DNA of 32,398 nucleotides, taken from contig JAJRUD010000069.1 of assembly GCA_024277995.1 (NCBI GenBank), positions 1 through 32,398 on the forward strand, in the 5' to 3' direction. Source of the stretch: Chloroflexota bacterium (GTDB lineage Bacteria; Chloroflexota; Anaerolineae; Anaerolineales; E44-bin32). Positions 7,571-17,991 of this stretch are shown piece after piece (the stretch's first letter is position 1; the number at the start of each line of letters is the position of its first letter). Under the pieces are notes generated by a model. The model saw only the letters and a list, made by a program, of their open reading frames with translations, was not told where the DNA came from and did no database searches. Made by a program: the position numbers and the translations under genes.

Positions 7571-9499
7571 ATGTCCGAAGAAGGGACGAAAAACGAGTCC
7601 GAAGCTGTGAGATGGAGAGGGTGGCGCGTCTGGCGCTTTCGCCTCTTCATACTGGCGGCGTTGCTGCTCGTGGGTGCCTTGAGCTGGGTTGGATTGAGCG
7701 CCGGAGGGGCACTCAGACCGACGCCGGTTGACCCGACGATCGAGGCCATCCTGACCGCGGCGGCGCGAACGGTCACACCCTCGGCGACGGCCTCGCCGCT
7801 CATTCCGACGGACACGCCCTCGCCGGCGCCCACGCGTGCAGCGCCCCTGGGGACGCTGATCTACGCCGCGCGGGCGCGCGGGCGTTCTCATTTATGGGCT
7901 GTATCGCCCCGCAGCGGTATCCCGGTCCAGCTCACCGGCGGCGATTGGGATGACCGCGATCCGGCGGTCAGCCCTGACGGAACTCAGGTGCTCTTCCGCT
8001 CCAACCGATCGGGCAATTGGGATCTCTACTTGTTGGACCTGCGTTCGGGCGGAGTGCGACAGGTGACGGAGACCCCCGGCTTCGAGGGTCACCCCGCCTG
8101 GTCGCCCGACGGCCGTTGGATCGTCTTCGAAGGCTACTACGATGGTGACCTGGACCTGTTCATCATCCCGGTGGACGGCGAGGGCGATTCCATCCAGCTC
8201 ACCAACCATCCCGGCGCCGACATGGAGCCTCATTGGTCGCCCGATGGGCGGCGCATCGCGTTCATCTCGGAGCGCGATGGATCGCCGGACGTGTTCATCG
8301 CCGACCTCGACGATCCGGGCCATCGCTTCCACAATGTGACGCGCACATCGGGTGTGATCGAGCACACGCCGCGCTTCGATCCGGACGGGACGGCATTGGC
8401 CTACAGCGCGCGTGCGGATGGGCTGGAGATGATCTGGGTGCTCCCGTTGGAGGGTGAGGATCAGGCGCCGAGAGAGGTCGGTCAGGGGGTGGTGCCTGTG
8501 TGGGGGCCCGGGGGCGAGCGCCTGGCCGCCGTCCTGAAGGCGCCCACCACACAGCACCTTGTGGTTTACGACATCTTCGACGAAGGCGGAGCGGCGATCG
8601 GCCTGGAGATCCCGGGGCGGGCGCAATTCGTGGACTGGACCGTGCACGGTCTGCCCGGGGAGGTTTACCAGGATGCGCGCAGGATCCCCAGTCTCACGCC
8701 GGCATATTCGGCGACGTTGGGAGAACCGCTGGGCATGGAGGGGAGGATTTCCCTGGTTGCGCTGCCCGGGGTGACGGCGCCCAACGCCCAACTCTCCGAT
8801 GCGGTTGATGAGGCCTTTCTCGCCCTGCGATCGCGCCTGGCGCGCGAGTTGGGATGGGATTTTCTGGCTTCCCTGGAGCAGGCTTTCGTCGGGCTGAACG
8901 ATCCCCTGCCTCCGGGCTATGCCTTCAACGATTGGCTCTACAGCGGGCGGGCTTTCGCCTTCAGCCAGGCCGCGGTGCGGGCGGGATGGGTGGAGGTTGT
9001 GCGCGAGGACTTCGGCGGCCAGGTCTATTGGCGCGTCTTCGTGCGCACCAGCGAGCAGGGGGGAGGGTTGGGAGAGCCGCTCAGGGACCGCCCCTGGGAT
9101 TTCGAGGCCCGGTTCCAGGCGGACCCGGTGGCGTATGATCAGGGAGGGGCGATCAAGGAATCCATTCCGCAGGGCTATTACGTGGACCTGACTGAGCTGG
9201 CGGCGGATTTCGGTTTTGAGCGGCTGCCGGCTCTCTCCAATTGGCGCACCTTCTACCTGGGGGCGCGCTTCAACGAGTTCGTGCGCACCGATGGTCTGAA
9301 CTGGCAGGAAGCCATGCTGCAGCTCTACCCGCCTGAAGCCATTGTGACACTGACGCCGTTCAGCACGCCGACGCCCACTCCAACGCGCACACCGCGCCCC
9401 ACGGCCACACCGTGGTGGTGGCGCTGGCGCACTCCCACACCGCGGCCGACGCAGACGCCGACCCAGACGCCGTCTCCGACGGTGGCGTGGCAAGAATGA
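7571..9499 (+). CDS. Membrane-anchored TolB-like beta-propeller protein with Thr/Pro linkers
   Basis: A 642-residue protein with a positively charged N-terminus and one transmembrane segment (about residues 25-45). A Thr/Pro/Ser/Ala-rich linker follows (about 48-92). Four to five WD40-like PD40 repeats come next (about 95-330), each showing the xPxxSPDGxxxxF core: DRDPAVSPDG, GHPAWSPDG, EPHWSPDG, HTPRFDPDG. A C-terminal domain of unknown fold (about 390-590) contains NDWLYSGRAF, EVVREDFGG and YWRVFVRT. The last 50 residues are a second Thr/Pro repeat tail with a WWWRWR patch. The body should lie outside the membrane. Its stop overlaps the M23 lipoprotein start (ATGA), so both probably act together in the envelope. 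An in-frame GTG at 7553 is an alternative start. Exact role unknown. Confidence 0.8.
   Translation: MSEEGTKNESEAVRWRGWRVWRFRLFILAALLLVGALSWVGLSAGGALRPTPVDPTIEAILTAAARTVTPSATASPLIPTDTPSPAPTRAAPLGTLIYAARARGRSHLWAVSPRSGIPVQLTGGDWDDRDPAVSPDGTQVLFRSNRSGNWDLYLLDLRSGGVRQVTETPGFEGHPAWSPDGRWIVFEGYYDGDLDLFIIPVDGEGDSIQLTNHPGADMEPHWSPDGRRIAFISERDGSPDVFIADLDDPGHRFHNVTRTSGVIEHTPRFDPDGTALAYSARADGLEMIWVLPLEGEDQAPREVGQGVVPVWGPGGERLAAVLKAPTTQHLVVYDIFDEGGAAIGLEIPGRAQFVDWTVHGLPGEVYQDARRIPSLTPAYSATLGEPLGMEGRISLVALPGVTAPNAQLSDAVDEAFLALRSRLARELGWDFLASLEQAFVGLNDPLPPGYAFNDWLYSGRAFAFSQAAVRAGWVEVVREDFGGQVYWRVFVRTSEQGGGLGEPLRDRPWDFEARFQADPVAYDQGGAIKESIPQGYYVDLTELAADFGFERLPALSNWRTFYLGARFNEFVRTDGLNWQEAMLQLYPPEAIVTLTPFSTPTPTPTRTPRPTATPWWWRWRTPTPRPTQTPTQTPSPTVAWQE
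9347..9487 (+). repeat. Thr/Pro-coding low-complexity repeat
   Basis: ACG/ACC/ACA-CCG/CCC/CCA codons repeat and encode the TPTPTPTRTP-like tail of the beta-propeller protein, interrupted by a WWWRWR block. Such tails are common wall or linker regions in secreted Chloroflexota proteins. Confidence 0.7.
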
Positions 9500-10596
9500 G
9501 ACGGCGAATATCACTCCTGGCCCCGATGATGGCGCTGGTCGCATCGCTGCCGGCATGTGCGCCGGCCGCTCCGGCGCGCATGCCGATACAGGGCGTCTCC
9601 ACGCAACTGGCCGTGACCGAGAGGCCGGTCGCCGTCGAAGAGCTGCCGCCGACGAGTGTGACGAAGCCCATGGAGACCGTCGAAGCCGCGCCGCCGGCTG
9701 CCGGCACGGCCACGGTTCTCGTCTTTCCGACAGCCAGCGCGGAGGTGGAATCCGGATGGCGGCCGCCACCCTACCCTGTGCCGCTGGCGCTGCGTCCGGA
9801 GGACCACTTCTATCTGGCCAGGCCTATTCCCTCCGGTATGGTGAATTGGCCGCATCCGCAGTACCGGTACGGGAACACCTTCTTCGGCGAGGAGAGCGTG
9901 CATACGGGAGTCGATCTGGGTGCGGGGAGAAGTACCCCGGTGCTGGCCGCTGGCCCGGGAGAAGTGATCTGGGCGGGATATGGTCTCTATCGCGGCGTGG
10001 AAGATCCCACCGACCCCTACGGGCTGGCGGTGGCCATCCGACACGATTTCGGGTACCGCAACCAGACGCTTTTCTCCATATATGGCCATATGCAGGCCCT
10101 GGCGGTATGGCCCGGACAGCGGGTGGAGACCGGCGAAGCGATCGGCATCGTCGGCGATACGGGCCATGCCAGCGGACCGCATCTGCATTTCGAGGTGCGG
10201 CTGGGGGAAAACGACTATTTCGCCACACGCAACCCCGAATTGTGGATGGTCCCGCCCGAGGGATGGGGCGTGCTTGCCGGACGCGTGATGGACAGCATCG
10301 GAAGGCCGCTCGCCGAGCAACTGATTCAGATCCGATCGCTGGAAACGGACCAGGTGTGGGATGTCTGGACCTACGCCAAAGAAACCGTCCATCCAGATGA
10401 CTTCTACAACGAGAACTTCGTGATCTCCGACCTGCCGGCGGGGCCATACGAGGTGCGCATCGGCTTTGTGGGAAGGACCTTCACGATGCAGCTCTACGTC
10501 TATCCAGGTCGCACCAATCTGTTCCTCTTCCGCGGGCGCGCCGGCTTCGAGATTGAGCCGACGGCGACGCCGGCAGATATGATCAATCCCCCCTGA
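9496..10596 (+). CDS. M23 (LytM) peptidase, putative lipoprotein
   Basis: A 366-residue putative peptidoglycan endopeptidase. The N-terminus (RRR, then LLAPMMALVASLPAC) looks like a lipoprotein signal with Cys21. LPAC is an imperfect lipobox, so lipidation is probable, not certain. A Pro/Thr-rich spacer runs to about residue 95. The LytM domain has the full zinc set: His136 and Asp140 in HTGVDLGAG, His198 in YGHMQ, and His229/His231 in GPHLHFEVR after GDTGHAS. The C-terminal 90 residues (GRVMDSIGRPLAEQLIQI onward) look like a carboxypeptidase-regulatory beta-sandwich. The start overlaps the upstream stop (ATGA), implying coupling to the beta-propeller gene. With all metal ligands present it should be an active hydrolase. 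Confidence 0.88.
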   Translation: MRRRISLLAPMMALVASLPACAPAAPARMPIQGVSTQLAVTERPVAVEELPPTSVTKPMETVEAAPPAAGTATVLVFPTASAEVESGWRPPPYPVPLALRPEDHFYLARPIPSGMVNWPHPQYRYGNTFFGEESVHTGVDLGAGRSTPVLAAGPGEVIWAGYGLYRGVEDPTDPYGLAVAIRHDFGYRNQTLFSIYGHMQALAVWPGQRVETGEAIGIVGDTGHASGPHLHFEVRLGENDYFATRNPELWMVPPEGWGVLAGRVMDSIGRPLAEQLIQIRSLETDQVWDVWTYAKETVHPDDFYNENFVISDLPAGPYEVRIGFVGRTFTMQLYVYPGRTNLFLFRGRAGFEIEPTATPADMINPP

Positions 10597-10625
10597 GTGA
10601 CATAACCCGCTCACAGGAGTGTGCC

Positions 10626-12188
10626 ATGCACATGAAAGAGCTCTTCGGCCGCAGATTGCGGCAGGTGCCGGCCGGCCTGGAGCGCCTGACGGCGCTGGCC
10701 GTGCGGGCGGGCCTGGTACGCGTCGGCATCGGCGGGATAGCGTGGCTGACGCTTGGGATGCGGGTGCGGGAGCGCATCGCCTCTCAAATGCGCGCGGCCT
10801 TGGGCCCTGCGGCCCGCGTCGTCTTGCCACCTGGCGAGAGATCGGAGGGCTGGCTGGAGCTGCTCGAGTCTGAGCTTGAATCCTATCGTCAGTTGCCCGT
10901 TGCATTGCTGGCAGAACGGGCTTTCCGGCAGGGGGCGGGAGGAGGCTCGTTGGCGGATCCAGGCTGGACCTCCGGTCTACAAGTGCTGCGTGTCGAGGCC
11001 GGGGAGGCAACCCATGAGGGGATGAACGCTTCATGGGGATCGGCGCTGGAGCCTGCGTGGCGCAAGCTGGGGCTCGCGCCTTGGCGGGTGGAAGATCTGG
11101 ACGGGGTCGCGATGTCGGTCGAGCCGGCCGAGGATGGTCCTTTGGAGCTGCTGCGCTGCGCCGCCTGCGGATATGGGGCGACGCGGCGCGCCGCTCGCTT
11201 CATGCGGGAGCCTGTCGAGCAGGAGCCCATGGTGCCGATGGAACGCGTGCCCACACCGGGCGCCAACACCATACGCGCGCTGGCGGAAATGCTGGCTGTG
11301 CCGCAGGCGAAGACTCTGAAAGCGGTGCTGCTGGAGGATGAGCGGGGACGGCTGGTCTTCGTCGTGGTACGCGGGGACCTGGAGGTCGACCTGGAGAAGG
11401 TTGACCACGCCCTGCAGATGGGGCGGTTGAAACCGGCGAGCGAGGCGACGATCCGCTCCTGGGGTGCCGAGCCGGGCTACGCCAGCCCCATCGGTCTGGA
11501 AGTGGCGCGGGATGCAAGCGGGTCTCGGGGTGTCATCGTCGTGGCCGATCTGTCTGTAGAAGGCGGAGTGAATTTCGTGGCCGGTGCCAACCAGCCGGAC
11601 ACCCATTTCACGGGCGTCAATCTGGGCCGCGATTTCGAGGCCACTCTGGTGGCAGACGTGGCCATAGCCCTGGCAGGCTCGCAGTGTGCGGCGTGCGGGG
11701 GACCGCTGCGGGAGGGTCGTGGGATCCCCCTCGCGTGGGAGGAGGAACTGCATCCTGCGCCGCGCTACGTGGACCGCGGTGGAAAAGCGCGTGCGGCGCG
11801 AGCGTCGCTGTTATCGCTGTCGCTGGAAGGGCACCTGGCGGCTTTGCTTGAAGGGCACGCTTCTGAGGCGGGGATCAGATGGCCGCCTGGGGCGGCGCCT
11901 TTCGACGTGCATCTGATCGTGCTGCGGGCGGTCGCGGAGGGAGCCGAGGTGGCGCGCGCGCTGGCGGAGGCCGGGCTGCAGGTGCTGATCGACGATCGCG
12001 ATGTTTCGGCGGGGGTTAAGTTCACCGACGCCGATCTGATCGGCTGCCCGGTGCGCGTCACCGTCAGCCCGCGCAGCCTGAAAGCGGGCGGAGTCGAGAT
12101 CGCCCAGGCGGGGGGGACAGAGGCGCGTGTGGTTCCGGTGAGCGAGGTCGCACAGGCGCTTCAGGCGGGCCAGGGCGCGGTTATGTAA
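10626..12188 (+). CDS. Prolyl-tRNA synthetase-like protein with degenerate catalytic core
   Basis: A 520-residue relative of bacterial-type ProRS (usually about 570 aa). The N-terminus (KELFGRRLRQVPAG, then LGMRVRERI) and the SYRQLP helix match ProRS. The motif 1-motif 2 region is shortened: the THEE substrate loop and the motif 2 arginine/REFxMKDAYSF block are absent, replaced around residues 95-125. The zinc-like CAACGYGA segment follows (178-184). The insertion (YbaK/INS) editing domain is well kept (about 205-350), with KTLKAVLL (Lys229/Lys232) and VAGANQPDTHFTGVNLGRD. Motif 3 (GCYGIGVSRL in true ProRS) is lost (about 393-408). The anticodon-binding domain is good (about 424-515, with GVKFTDADLIGCPVRVTV). 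AGGAG precedes the ATG by 6 nt. Probably a non-charging paralogue, perhaps an editing factor. No frameshift or stop is seen. Confidence 0.82.
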   Translation: MHMKELFGRRLRQVPAGLERLTALAVRAGLVRVGIGGIAWLTLGMRVRERIASQMRAALGPAARVVLPPGERSEGWLELLESELESYRQLPVALLAERAFRQGAGGGSLADPGWTSGLQVLRVEAGEATHEGMNASWGSALEPAWRKLGLAPWRVEDLDGVAMSVEPAEDGPLELLRCAACGYGATRRAARFMREPVEQEPMVPMERVPTPGANTIRALAEMLAVPQAKTLKAVLLEDERGRLVFVVVRGDLEVDLEKVDHALQMGRLKPASEATIRSWGAEPGYASPIGLEVARDASGSRGVIVVADLSVEGGVNFVAGANQPDTHFTGVNLGRDFEATLVADVAIALAGSQCAACGGPLREGRGIPLAWEEELHPAPRYVDRGGKARAARASLLSLSLEGHLAALLEGHASEAGIRWPPGAAPFDVHLIVLRAVAEGAEVARALAEAGLQVLIDDRDVSAGVKFTDADLIGCPVRVTVSPRSLKAGGVEIAQAGGTEARVVPVSEVAQALQAGQGAVM

Positions 12189-12195
12189 AGAAATC

Positions 12196-12225
12196 TTGAC
12201 AGCGCCTGGGCCGCTGTGCTATGCT
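12196..12225 (+). promoter_or_regulatory. SigA-type promoter of the MBL/RNase H genes
   Basis: TTGACA (12196-12201) and TATGCT (12220-12225) are separated by 18 bp. Transcription would start near 12232, so the ATG at 12254 (with GGAGGG just before it) is the start, not the earlier in-frame ATG at 12221. Confidence 0.75.
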
Positions 12226-12253
12226 TCCGCCCGGTGCATTACCCGGAGGGAAC

Positions 12254-13087
12254 ATGGTACGAGAGCGAGTCGCAGACAACGTGTACATTTTCACCAGCGA
12301 GCGCTACGCGCTGGTCAACGCCGGGGCAGTGGTGGGACCGAACTGGTCGGTTGTCATCGACTCGCTGGCCTTTCCGGAGGAAAGTCTGGAGATCCGCGCC
12401 TTCCTCGAAGAGCGCCTCGGCTCCCCGGTTCGCTATCTGATCAACACGCATTATCACGCCGATCACACCAACGGCAATTGCTGGTTCCCGGGTGCCATCG
12501 TGTTGGGGCACCGCCTGTGTCGGGAGCTGCTGGACACGCGCGGCCGGCAGGCGCTGAAGGCCGCCCAGGAGCAGAGCCGCGAGCTGCGCGAGGTCGCCAT
12601 CGTGTTGCCCGACGTGGTCTTCGACCGGGGAACCATCAGCCTGCGGGTGGGGAAGCGCACCGTGCAACTGGTGCCCCTGCCAGGCCACACCAAGGATGGG
12701 ATCGGGGCGCTGGTGGTGGAGGATCGGGTGCTCTTCTCAGGCGATGTGATGATGCCGGTCCCGTATCTGGTGGACGGCGATTATGACCAGATGGTGGAGA
12801 GCCTGAAGCGGCTGCCGCGCATGAAGCTGGAAAGCCTGGTGCAGGGACATGGCGAGGTCATCCTGCGCGGCGAGGTTGGCAATGCCGTGCGCGCCAATCT
12901 GAACTATCTGGCCGCGGCGCGGCGCGAGGTGCGCAAGGCGGCGCGCCGGCGGGATCCGCAGGCCTATCTGGAGCGCGTCAACATCGAGGATTGCGGCAAG
13001 AGCCAGATCATTCTCGGGGGGCTGGCGCAGGAGCTGCACCGCCGCAACCTGCTGAGCATGTATCAGACGTGGTACGGCGATGCCTGA
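12254..13087 (+). CDS. Metallo-beta-lactamase-fold hydrolase
   Basis: A 277-residue MBL-fold metallohydrolase. The metal-binding HxHxDH motif is complete (His66, His68, Asp70, His71 in THYHADHTNGN). Later metal residues are His in the LPGHTKDG loop, Asp in LFSGDVM and His in VQGHGEV. It lacks a signal peptide, so it is cytoplasmic. It could be a glyoxalase II-like thioesterase or another small-molecule hydrolase; the substrate cannot be determined. The gene starts a transcription unit at its own promoter and overlaps the following RNase HI family gene by 8 bp, so both are probably co-translated. Confidence 0.87.
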   Translation: MVRERVADNVYIFTSERYALVNAGAVVGPNWSVVIDSLAFPEESLEIRAFLEERLGSPVRYLINTHYHADHTNGNCWFPGAIVLGHRLCRELLDTRGRQALKAAQEQSRELREVAIVLPDVVFDRGTISLRVGKRTVQLVPLPGHTKDGIGALVVEDRVLFSGDVMMPVPYLVDGDYDQMVESLKRLPRMKLESLVQGHGEVILRGEVGNAVRANLNYLAAARREVRKAARRRDPQAYLERVNIEDCGKSQIILGGLAQELHRRNLLSMYQTWYGDA

Positions 13088-13901: not shown

Positions 13902-14612
13902 ATGACCGAGTTGCTCTACCTGCAGGATGCTTATCTGAAGACCTTCGAAGCCACAGTCGTGAGCGTGGAGGGCTCAGAGGTGGCGCTGGACCGCACGGCT
14001 TTCTACCCAGGTGGAGGAGGTCAGCCGAATGACGTCGGCAGGCTGCTGCGCGACGGGCAGGTGTTGCCCGTTGTCAAGGTCCGCCGACGGGAAGGGCTCG
14101 TCTGGCACCAGATCGAAGGGGAGCCGCCGGCGCTCGGGGAGCAGGTCCACGGAGAGCTGGATTGGGAGCGGCGTTATCAGTTGATGCGCACTCACACCGC
14201 CATGCACATCCTGTGCGGCGTGATCTGGCGCGATTACGGGGCCAGCGTCACCGGGGGCAACATGCAGCCCCTGCGCGGCAGGATGGACTTCGAATTCGAG
14301 CACATGCAGAAGGAACTTGTGCGCGAGATCGAGGCCAAGATCAACCGGGAAGTGCAGGCCGCCAGGCCCGTGCGCACGCAGATCTTGCCGCGCGAAGAGG
14401 CCTTCAAGATCCCGGACCTGATTCGCACCAAGATCAACTTGCTTCCCGAAGCCATCCAGCAGGTGCGCGTGGTGGAGATCGTGGGCCTGGACCTGCAGGC
14501 GGACGGCGGGACGCACGTCGCGAACACGCGCGAGGTGGGTCCCATCCGGATCGTGGACTACAAGAGCAAGGGCGCGATCAACAAGCGCCTCGTCGTCGAG
14601 CTGCAAGCCTGA
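13902..14612 (+). CDS. alaX: AlaX-like alanyl-tRNA editing protein
   Basis: A 236-residue freestanding relative of the AlaRS editing domain. AlaX proteins hydrolyse misacylated Ser- or Gly-tRNA(Ala) in trans. An N-terminal beta-barrel region carries FYPGGGGQPND (about 34-44). The zinc motif HTAMH is at His98-His102. The second zinc motif, usually C-x3-H, reads DGGTHVANTREVG, so His205 is kept but Asp201 stands where Cys normally binds zinc. The extended N-terminal domain matches the medium-size AlaX class. A GGAG lies 8 nt before the ATG. The gene is first after the Ile T-box and only 13 bp before ileS, an unexpected place for an alanine-linked editing factor. Activity toward another mischarged tRNA is possible. 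Confidence 0.85.
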   Translation: MTELLYLQDAYLKTFEATVVSVEGSEVALDRTAFYPGGGGQPNDVGRLLRDGQVLPVVKVRRREGLVWHQIEGEPPALGEQVHGELDWERRYQLMRTHTAMHILCGVIWRDYGASVTGGNMQPLRGRMDFEFEHMQKELVREIEAKINREVQAARPVRTQILPREEAFKIPDLIRTKINLLPEAIQQVRVVEIVGLDLQADGGTHVANTREVGPIRIVDYKSKGAINKRLVVELQA

Positions 14613-14625
14613 ACTGAGGTGTGCG

Positions 14626-17600
14626 ATGTTCAAACCTGTTCCTAACCCCGTCGATTTCATCGCCCAGGAGCATGAGATCCTGCGCTTCTGGCAGGAGAGC
14701 AAGGCCTTTGACAAGCTGCGCGCCCTGCGCGCGCATGGGCCGCGCTGGTCCTTCATCGACGGTCCCATCACGGCCAACAACCCCATGGGCGTGCACCACG
14801 GCTGGGGCCGGACCTACAAGGACCTCTTCCATCGCTTCAATGCCATGAAGGGCTGTCAGACGCGCTACCAGAACGGCTTCGACTGCCAGGGCCTCTGGGT
14901 GGAGGTGAACGTCGAGCGCGAGATGGGCTTCCGCAGCAAGCGCGACATCGAGGCCTTCGGCCTGGCTGAATTCGTCGTCATCTGCAAGCAGCGCGTCCTG
15001 AACTACGCCGCCGTGCAGACGGAACAGAGCATCCGCCTGGGCTATTGGATGGATTGGGGCGACCCCGACTTCCTGCGCATGCTGCGGGACGAACTGGCGA
15101 AAGACCCCTCGCGTGTGATCACCGTGGCGGGGCCGCAGGGACCGGTGACGGGGACGGTGGAGTGGATCGTCGGCCACCTGGGGATGCCTGAGCTGGGCGG
15201 CTCCTACTTCACCTTCTCCGACGAGAACAACTACACCATCTGGTCGGTCCTCAAATCCTGCGACGAGCGGGGCTGGATCTACAAGGGACGCGATGTGATG
15301 CCCTGGTGCGCCCGCTGCGGGACGGGGATCAGCCAGCATGAGATCGTCACCGAGGGTTATCAGGAGATCACCCATCCGAGCATCGTGCTGCGTTTTCCCC
15401 TGAAGGACAGCCCGGGTGAGAACTTGCTGGTGTGGACCACGACGCCCTGGACGCTGACCAGCAACGTGGCGGCGGCGGTCGGCCCGGAGCTGACCTACCT
15501 GCGCGTCCGCCAGGGGGACGAGGTCTTCTACCTGAGCAAGGGCACCGTGCACGTCCTGAAGGGTGAATACGAGGTGCTGGAGGAGCTGCGCGGGGAGCAG
15601 ATGGAGGGCTGGCAGTACAGCGGGCCCTTCGATGAACTGCCGGCGCAGGTGAAGAGCGGCGCGCCGGAGGCGCATCGCATCATCCTGTGGGACGAGGTGG
15701 GAGAAGAAGAAGGCACGGGGATCGTGCACATCGCCCCGGGCTGCGGCGCCGAGGACTTCGCGCTCAGCAAGCAATACGACCTGCCCGTGATCGCCCCGCT
15801 GGACGAAGCCGGCGTCTTCGTCCAGGGCTTCGACTGGTTGACGGAGATGCGCGTCAGCGAGGTGGCGAAGCCCATTTTTGAGAACCTGACGCAGAAGGGC
15901 CTGACCTACCGCATCGACGATTACACCCACCGCTACCCCGTCTGCTGGCGCTGCGGTGAGGAGCTGGTCTTCCGTCTGGTGGACGAATGGTTCATCTCGA
16001 TGGGAGAGAAGCTGGACAAGCCCTACGAGGAGGTCACCGAGGAGGAAAAGGCGCGCAACCTGCGCTATCAAATCATGGAGGTGGTGATCGATGAAACGCG
16101 CTGGCACCCCTCCTTCGGCCTGGAGCGGGAGCTCGACTGGCTGCGCAACATGGACGACTGGATGATCTCCAAGAAGCGCTATTGGGGGCTGGCGCTGCCG
16201 ATCTACGAATGCGGCGAATGCGGCAACTTCGAGGTGATGGGCAGCAAGGAAGAGTTGCGCGAGCGGGCCGTCGAGGGGTGGGAGATCTTCGAGGGCCATA
16301 CGCCCCACCGGCCATACGTCGATGCCGTGAAGATCGCCTGCTCGAAGTGCGGCAGCTACATCAGCCGCATCCCGGATGTCGGCAATCCGTGGCTGGACGC
16401 GGGCATCGTGGCCATGAGCACGCTGCGCTACAACCAGGATCGGGAGTATTGGAAGCAGTGGTTCCCTGCCGACCTGATCTCCGAGAGCTTCCCGGGGCAA
16501 TTCCGCAACTGGTTCTACAGCCTGCTCACCATGAGCACCATTCTGGAGCGCAAGGCGCCCTTCAAGAACGTCTTCAGCTATGCGACCTTGCTGGCCGAGG
16601 ACGGGCGTCCCATGCACAAGTCGTGGGGCAACGCCATCGAGTTCAACGAGGCGGCCGACAAGATGGGCGTCGATGTGATGCGCTGGCTTTACTGCGATCA
16701 CAAACCTGAGAAGGACCTGCTCTTCGGCTACCATCGCGCCGACGAGGTGCGGCGCCAATTCTTGCTCCCGCTGTGGAACGTCTACGCCTTCTTCGTCACC
16801 TACGCCAACCTGGACGGCTGGACCCCCGCCGACCGGGGCGAGGCAGCCTTCAGCGACCTGGACCGCTGGATCCTGTCACGATTGCAGGAGGTGGTGGTCG
16901 AGGTCACCCGTCGCCTGGAGACTTTCGAACCCAACCTGGCGACGGCCGCCGTGAACCGCTTCCTGGATCACCTGAGCAACTGGTATCTGCGCCGCAGCCG
17001 GCGGCGCTTCTGGGCCAAGCCCGGCGCCAGCGAAGCCTCCGACGCCGACAAACGGGCCGCCTACCGGACGCTCTATGAAGTGCTGGTCACCTTGAGCAAA
17101 CTGCTGGCCCCCTTCGTGCCCTTCGTGACGGAGGTCATCTTCCAGAATCTGGTCCGGCAGGTAGACGCCGATGCCCCGGAGAGCGTGCATCATTGCGATT
17201 GGCCTGCGGCCGACGAGGGTCGGATTGACCGTGAGCTGCTGCGGGACATGGATCTGGTGATGAAGCTGGTCTCCCTTGGCCACGCGAGCCGCAACCAGGC
17301 GAACCTCAAGCTGCGTCAGCCCCTGGCCGAAGCGGCCATCGTGGTAGGGGCGGCCGACGAGCGCGCCGTCGTCGATCGCTATGGCGATCTGATCGGCGAG
17401 GAGCTGAACGTCAGGCGCGTCAGGCTGCTGGACGCCGCCACGGAAGTGGTCAGCTACCGCCTGCACCCGCTCCCCAGGCAGTTGGGCCAGAAGTACGGCG
17501 CTCGCTTCCCCGCGCTGCGCCGCGCGATCCTCGAACTCGATGCCGAAGAGGCGGGACGGCGCTTGCTGGAGGGGCAGCCGATCGAAGTGTCGCTGGATGG

Positions 17601-17991
17601 CGAGCGGCTGGAGGTCTTGCCAGAGGAAGTCGAGGTCAGGTTCGAGAGCCACTCCGGATTCGCTGCGGCGGTGGAGGGCCCCTATCTGGTGGCGCTGGAC
17701 ACGGAGATCACCCCCGAGCTGGCGCGTGAGGGATTGATGCGCGAGTTCGTGCGCCGGGTGCAGGAACTGCGTAAGAAGGCGGGCCTCGACGTCGCGGATC
17801 GCATCGCGATCCAGTACCACGCGACGCCGCAACTGGCGGAGGCAATCGAGGCGCATCGGGCCTTCGTCATGGCCGAGACCCTGGCCGAGGAGCTGCGGGC
17901 CGTCGATCAACCGCAGGGTGAGGCGGCCATGGAGCAGGATTTCGGCGGCGAAAGCCTGCAGGTGGCCATCAGACGGCAGATGGCCGCGTAA
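14626..17991 (+). CDS. ileS: Isoleucyl-tRNA synthetase, type 2-like with GVHH signature
   Basis: A 1121-residue class I synthetase that charges tRNA-Ile. The ATP-binding HIGH motif is replaced by GVHH (55-58, within NPMGVHHGWGRTYKD), a form with positions 1 and 3 swapped. The KMSKS loop reads MHKSWGN (663-669), keeping the second Lys. The CP1 editing domain is present: WTTTPWTLTSN from Trp270, and a GIVHIAPGCGAEDF segment near 370. Four Cys pairs (CARCG, CWRCG, CGECG, CSKCG) suggest zinc sites. The anticodon-binding helical domain starts near 755 (DRWILSRLQ), and the C-terminal extension resembles eukaryote-like IleRS2. The upstream AUC T-box supports isoleucine. GAGG precedes the ATG. Length is normal. 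IleRS2 enzymes tend to be mupirocin-tolerant. Confidence 0.9.
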   Translation: MFKPVPNPVDFIAQEHEILRFWQESKAFDKLRALRAHGPRWSFIDGPITANNPMGVHHGWGRTYKDLFHRFNAMKGCQTRYQNGFDCQGLWVEVNVEREMGFRSKRDIEAFGLAEFVVICKQRVLNYAAVQTEQSIRLGYWMDWGDPDFLRMLRDELAKDPSRVITVAGPQGPVTGTVEWIVGHLGMPELGGSYFTFSDENNYTIWSVLKSCDERGWIYKGRDVMPWCARCGTGISQHEIVTEGYQEITHPSIVLRFPLKDSPGENLLVWTTTPWTLTSNVAAAVGPELTYLRVRQGDEVFYLSKGTVHVLKGEYEVLEELRGEQMEGWQYSGPFDELPAQVKSGAPEAHRIILWDEVGEEEGTGIVHIAPGCGAEDFALSKQYDLPVIAPLDEAGVFVQGFDWLTEMRVSEVAKPIFENLTQKGLTYRIDDYTHRYPVCWRCGEELVFRLVDEWFISMGEKLDKPYEEVTEEEKARNLRYQIMEVVIDETRWHPSFGLERELDWLRNMDDWMISKKRYWGLALPIYECGECGNFEVMGSKEELRERAVEGWEIFEGHTPHRPYVDAVKIACSKCGSYISRIPDVGNPWLDAGIVAMSTLRYNQDREYWKQWFPADLISESFPGQFRNWFYSLLTMSTILERKAPFKNVFSYATLLAEDGRPMHKSWGNAIEFNEAADKMGVDVMRWLYCDHKPEKDLLFGYHRADEVRRQFLLPLWNVYAFFVTYANLDGWTPADRGEAAFSDLDRWILSRLQEVVVEVTRRLETFEPNLATAAVNRFLDHLSNWYLRRSRRRFWAKPGASEASDADKRAAYRTLYEVLVTLSKLLAPFVPFVTEVIFQNLVRQVDADAPESVHHCDWPAADEGRIDRELLRDMDLVMKLVSLGHASRNQANLKLRQPLAEAAIVVGAADERAVVDRYGDLIGEELNVRRVRLLDAATEVVSYRLHPLPRQLGQKYGARFPALRRAILELDAEEAGRRLLEGQPIEVSLDGERLEVLPEEVEVRFESHSGFAAAVEGPYLVALDTEITPELAREGLMREFVRRVQELRKKAGLDVADRIAIQYHATPQLAEAIEAHRAFVMAETLAEELRAVDQPQGEAAMEQDFGGESLQVAIRRQMAA

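Follow-up and report, generated by a model that had tools for sequence, protein, structure and literature searches.

The locus

By the window we mean the whole 32,398-nucleotide stretch of a Chloroflexota contig (JAJRUD010000069.1) that we analyzed. It contains an open reading frame for a protein whose sequence indicates that it is a family-II (bacterial-type) ProRS by descent: ProRS is its best relative over most of its length, its place in the gene tree agrees with this, and the nearest solved structures by sequence are family-II ProRSs, with that of E. faecalis (2j3l) at the top. As a preliminary description had stated, the frame is open over 520 codons; it has an ATG start preceded by a ribosome-binding site, and no internal stops (Table 1).

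Table 1. Features of the window around the ProRS-derived gene
Feature	Position	Strand	Evidence or remark
M23 peptidase	9412..10596	+	Syntenic, upstream; outside the proposed mechanism
Shine-Dalgarno-like AGGAG ahead of the ATG	10615..10619	+	Sequence itself
Dead family-II ProRS, proposed trans-editing factor	10626..12188	+	520-aa ORF; NF006625 score; AF2 fold
Degenerate N-terminal half of class-II core, residues 1-177	10626..11156	+	TXE loop deleted and motif 2 lost (alignment with intact enzymes); PF00587 absent
First CxxC (C178, C181)	11157..11168	+	Alignment with intact relatives
INS editing domain (PF04073), residues 210-333	11253..11624	+	K232, D308, N322, and H327 retained
Second CxxC (C354, C357)	11685..11696	+	Alignment with intact relatives
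Remnant of C-terminal half of class-II core, residues 358-419	11697..11882	+	Motif 3 GxGxxR replaced
Anticodon-binding domain, ABD (PF03129, HGTP_anticodon), residues 436-513	11931..12164	+	DDR...GVKFTDADLIGCP retained
MBL-fold hydrolase	12221..13087	+	Syntenic, downstream; outside the proposed mechanism
AlaXM-like alanyl-tRNA editing protein	13902..14612	+	Syntenic; NF040865 298.2 bits, slightly below the cut-off of 300
IleRS	14626-17991		Directly after the AlaXM-like gene

In the window's family, the gene order is PD40, M23 peptidase, dead ProRS, MBL protein, (RNase H), AlaXM, IleRS, RluD-like protein, and beta-eliminating lyase, and even the two members that diverge the most have retained it. 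The preliminary description placed the gene beside an envelope operon. The M23 gene fits that picture, but the other side, with its MBL, RNase-H-like, AlaXM, and IleRS genes, does not. Partly decayed family-II genes in another family (f18; L215, L218, L219, L221, and L223) are, as in the window's family, immediately preceded by an M23-peptidase-like segment. It may mark the gene's ancestral place. The dead ProRS is followed, after about 1.7 kb, by the AlaXM-like gene (the listed ORF start, 13707, is too early). It would be another trans-editing gene near the dead ProRS, and a functional tie between the two is putative.

The charging site is lost while the editing and anticodon domains are kept

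The only Pfam domains that match the 520-residue protein are tRNA_edit/INS (PF04073, 79.3 bits against a cut-off of 25.5) and HGTP_anticodon (PF03129); the class-II core (PF00587) has no match in it, whereas all three domains score in an intact family-II relative. Among the window protein and 14 relatives (alignment A1, n = 15), PF04073 is found in 15/15, PF03129 in 14/15 (the exception runs off the end of its contig), and PF00587 in 0/15. Because A1 was too divergent for scanning genome contigs, a closer alignment (A2) was used for that. Models of the whole enzyme place the window protein below the threshold for a functional family-II ProRS: NF006625, the NCBIfam model for family-II proS, gives 214.7 bits against a cut-off of 558, and TIGR00409 gives 133.4 bits against 306.7.

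Alignment to intact family-II enzymes locates the damage. A segment that lies between motifs 1 and 2 is deleted, and with it both proline-binding residues of the TXE loop. The first arginine of motif 2 is deleted and the second is replaced by D, and in motif 3 the Gly, Gly, and Arg of GxGxxR have become S, S, and G. By motif 2, motif 3, and the TXE loop, the protein falls outside the functional family-II ProRSs. By sequence it does belong to the INS superfamily, as PF04073 scores above its cut-off and the catalytic Lys and pocket residues are present. If we consider the columns that are at least 95% conserved in intact family-II enzymes, then the window protein retains 38 of 39 in INS and the ABD together (18 of 19 in the ABD) but just 21 of 58 in the catalytic domain. 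Across the decayed copies, 99% of the conserved residues are kept in INS and 97% in the ABD, as compared to 40% and 55% in the two halves of the core. So the preliminary description was right that the motif 2 and motif 3 residues are missing and that the INS/YbaK and anticodon-binding domains are well conserved, and the loss of the TXE loop can be added; the protein does not have what a complete active site would need. The two CxxC pairs are ancestral and also occur in intact relatives.

The protein is nevertheless predicted to be well folded rather than a wreck. The AlphaFold model (AF2, from an alignment of 39 sequences) has a pLDDT of 93.8 and a pTM of 0.90, and its best fold matches are whole ProRS structures, 2j3l and 2j3m (TM 0.85 on the query for 2j3l). 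That the fold matches ProRS as a whole might suggest that the protein still charges proline with an unusual active site. We give this idea almost no credence, as the TXE residues, the motif-2 arginines, and motif 3 are all gone and the genome encodes another ProRS.

That other enzyme is encoded on contig 54 and is a full-length ProRS of family I (archaeal-type; 563 bits), so the further full-length proS that the preliminary description had proposed to look for is present. It contains PF00587, PF03129, and the C-terminal domain PF09180, and it lacks the INS domain (PF04073). Given this separate enzyme, proline charging does not need the gene at 10626-12188. Another match in the same genome (C157) was considered as a further ProRS and rejected, as it is ThrRS.

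Distribution of decayed copies

We looked for similar genes in 61 genomes (the window's own genome and 60 relatives) and then in a class-wide sample of 199 genomes of Anaerolineae (Chloroflexota), in which the state of family II was assigned by score. In the first sample, 17 genomes have a dead family-II copy, and an 18th copy (G005) is interrupted by the end of a contig. Family I is present, whole or in part, in 16 of the 17. The exception (G006) has a decayed copy and no family-I gene that we could find; it is a MAG in 540 contigs, and it counts against the trans-editing function that we propose below. In the class-wide sample, family II is above the cut-off in 97 genomes, decayed in 58, and represented by fragments in 7. 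All 58 genomes with decayed family II have family I, as compared to 49 of the 97 with intact family II. Such an association has to hold if the family-II enzyme is dead; it confirms the death of the enzyme, but it does not by itself argue for editing. An independent-pairs test of decay against family I was limited by a shortage of informative pairs.

We fetched about 40 of the decayed copies from the class-wide set and checked them residue by residue where the alignment permitted. A few family-II genes that score above the cut-off (in G065, G071, G147, and G202) are already partly decayed. No genome among the 199 has both a decayed and an intact family-II gene. We considered this mutual exclusion as evidence of a shared function and dropped it, as the two may be states of one gene. 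It does bear on the question, raised in the preliminary description, of whether the protein is a conserved paralogue of ProRS: that idea has to be modified, as decayed and intact family II never share a genome and decay has set in several times independently.

Family I also occurs without a detectable family-II gene, in 28 genomes of the class-wide sample, and ProXp-ala, which is presumed to carry out the reaction that we propose here, is rare in the class (6/61 and 2/199 genomes). It appears that the factor is dispensable in some lineages, which also counts against the proposed function. A profile for ProXp-ala (A4) has no match in the window's own genome. G017, another observation on the negative side, has ProXp-ala in addition to a decayed family-II copy that is very divergent. 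There is a hint that decayed family II and ProXp-ala are complementary (1/17 vs. 5/15, p 0.08; p 0.009 when genomes with any family II are compared to those with none), but these comparisons are uncorrected for kinship and are only suggestive.

Two genomes have unusual gene content. G166 has two full-length family-I ProRS genes, on contigs 121 and 53. G155 (L265, family f57) seems to be the reverse case: its family-II ProRS has intact synthetic motifs, while in the alignment the INS Asn is replaced by Lys and the His by Asp. This protein forms a long branch in the tree, and the genome also has family I. The replacement of the INS residues could be an effect of the alignment.

Graded and repeated decay

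The decayed copies form a graded series that begins with intact enzymes. At an early stage, the protein still has its full length and is missing one or a few residues of the active site (G071, in which a motif-2 Arg has become Gln, and G147, G202, G065, G097, and G166). At a late stage, most of the active-site residues are gone (G236, G255, G173, G239, and G116), and copies like the window's are collapsed.

On a class-wide tree built from INS and the ABD with the intervening linker, there are at least 10 changes of state, or at least 4 if only well-supported branches are counted; the tree search was short and does not fix the exact number of losses. We interpret the changes as repeated losses because regaining the active site is implausible. 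A single origin of all decayed copies is rejected with the class-wide set, which includes transitional forms (AU test, p 1.8e-68), although it was not rejected with a smaller first tree of 72 sequences (p 0.187). Decay thus arose more than once.

The dN/dS ratios between decayed copies are 0.12-0.31 overall and 0.08-0.20 in INS, which has the lowest ratio of any part of the protein in most pairs. Pairs of intact enzymes are at about 0.05. These ratios indicate that the decayed copies are under purifying selection, if weaker than that on working synthetases; the weaker constraint is a point against the proposed function. With relatives at the same locus that are about 45% identical, ratios well below 1, and a confident predicted fold, the observation is beyond chance.

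Could these genes be non-functional relics that are being lost? The dead ProRS does evolve faster than its syntenic neighbors (28-47% identity to the window protein, as compared to 45-79% for PD40 through the beta-eliminating lyase). Also, in eight other members of the family, the M23 and MBL genes are so close that there is no space for it (three of these eight have an intact family-II gene elsewhere). But the frames are intact in dozens of genomes, every part of the protein has a dN/dS well below 1, INS and the ABD are conserved almost perfectly, and several independent lineages converge on the same architecture. We consider a relic to be very improbable.

A proposed function in editing

Which function could select for these two domains without the active site? 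The INS domain of bacterial ProRS edits Ala-tRNA(Pro). In E. coli ProRS, INS has no specificity for tRNA of its own and relies on the ABD, which reads G35 and G36, and editing by INS is independent of the acceptor-stem elements that are used in charging (PMC3973320). Since the specificity of INS comes from the ABD (PMC3973320), the retained parts are exactly those needed to edit Ala-tRNA(Pro). We therefore have good confidence, from comparative data, in the view that the protein is a family-II ProRS that has lost aminoacylation and is kept as a free-standing proofreader, which would clear the Ala-tRNA(Pro) that the family-I enzyme produces. In this scheme, the family-I ProRS, without INS, would charge proline; the dead protein would bind tRNA(Pro) via its ABD; the degenerate class-II core would serve as a scaffold and might still form a dimer; and INS would hydrolyze mischarged Ala-tRNA(Pro) in trans. 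Both the binding of tRNA(Pro) and the deacylation of Ala-tRNA(Pro) in the cell are what we infer for the window protein. The preliminary description had also suggested an editing factor, and between the comparative data and the published biochemistry of INS and the ABD (PMC3973320), this seems to be the best-supported reading.

Alternatively, the protein might be a regulator or sensor that binds tRNA(Pro), a dead synthetase put to a new use in the manner of HisZ, with editing being incidental. HisZ and some other aaRS paralogues do have other roles (PMC7373986), and the ABD is well conserved here. On the other hand, a mere sensor would not need K232, D308, N322, and H327 of INS, and these are present in all of the decayed proteins that we compared. 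Nor did we see a constant neighbor in the syntenic loci that was a regulator or a proline gene. We think that a regulatory role is rather unlikely.

It is also possible that the dead protein physically binds the family-I ProRS and edits within a hetero-oligomer, instead of acting on free mischarged tRNA. There is a precedent, as the T1/T2 heterodimer of Anabaena ThrRS edits in trans (PMC4787780). Furthermore, in several genomes the family-I and family-II proS genes adjoin on one strand: this is seen from the ORFs in G202 (L256), G071 (L257), G102 (L258), G109 (L259), and G165 (L261), and from coordinates in G135, G221, G224, and G230. The tandem pairs include the partly decayed family-II copies of G071 and G202. 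However, the two genes are on different contigs in the window's genome and its close relatives, and they are far apart in a genome that is a single contig (G022). We doubt that the two proteins form a complex, but we take the idea seriously.

Comparison with known systems

The window protein shares its whole fold, the INS and anticodon domains, and the K/D/N/H of INS with family-II ProRSs that contain INS (those of E. coli and E. faecalis, 2j3l). It differs from them in that the TXE loop, motif 2, and motif 3 are gone, it is about 60 residues shorter than its intact relatives, and another ProRS does the charging.

The closest analogue that is known to work is ThrRS-ed of archaea, a hydrolase of Ser-tRNA(Thr) (PRK14938), which is likewise an editing protein derived from a synthetase beside a separate charging enzyme (PMC7373986). 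ThrRS-ed belongs to the threonine system of archaea and has an unrelated, DTD-like editing domain. The window protein is not itself a ThrRS-ed: PRK14938 matches it weakly (12.3 bits) and only in the region of the anticodon domain. By analogy, our best reading is that the dead ProRS would be the proline counterpart of ThrRS-ed. In Anabaena, charging and proofreading are also divided between two synthetases, T1 and T2, but both of these aminoacylate under some condition and they too belong to the threonine system (PMC4787780).

In the papers that we consulted, the trans editors for tRNA(Pro), YbaK and ProXp-ala, are single INS-like domains (PMC3973320). ProXp-ala presumably catalyzes the same reaction as is proposed here, hydrolysis of Ala-tRNA(Pro) in trans, but it reads the acceptor stem (PMC3973320). 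The window protein has multiple domains and has just a weak phmmer match to ProXp-ala (5vxb, 22.5 bits), so it is not a member of that family. YbaK, a Cys-tRNA(Pro) deacylase of the INS superfamily, also edits for tRNA(Pro) in trans, but it is not specific for tRNA by itself and relies on ProRS (PMC3973320).

ProRSx is an extra bacterial-type ProRS beside a housekeeping one, as in the window's genome. But ProRSx is active and has a changed anticodon domain (PMC11415595), while the window protein has lost its synthetic site and kept its ABD, so it is not a ProRSx. In a 2022 review of aaRS duplications, ProRSx is the sole entry for ProRS (PMC9437257). An incomplete search of the open-access literature for a dead ProRS, or a ProRS-like paralogue, that is kept for editing turned up none.

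Implications

Genes in such genomes that resemble proline--tRNA ligase may not charge proline, and annotations should be read with this in mind. The dead proteins would also be natural editing-only versions of ProRS. How the reading of the anticodon is coupled to the distant editing site is an open question (PMC3973320), and these proteins could be used to study it.

More broadly, we think it somewhat likely that in the Anaerolineae, a second ProRS without INS has repeatedly let the original synthetase become an anticodon reader that only edits. The result would be a two-gene “split ProRS,” with a charger and a proofreader, and every stage of its evolution would be found in living genomes. Because there are many stages of decay and the process is repeated, the order in which a synthetase loses its functions can be asked about directly. 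The series also lets one ask whether editing alone is selected for once charging has been taken over by another enzyme.
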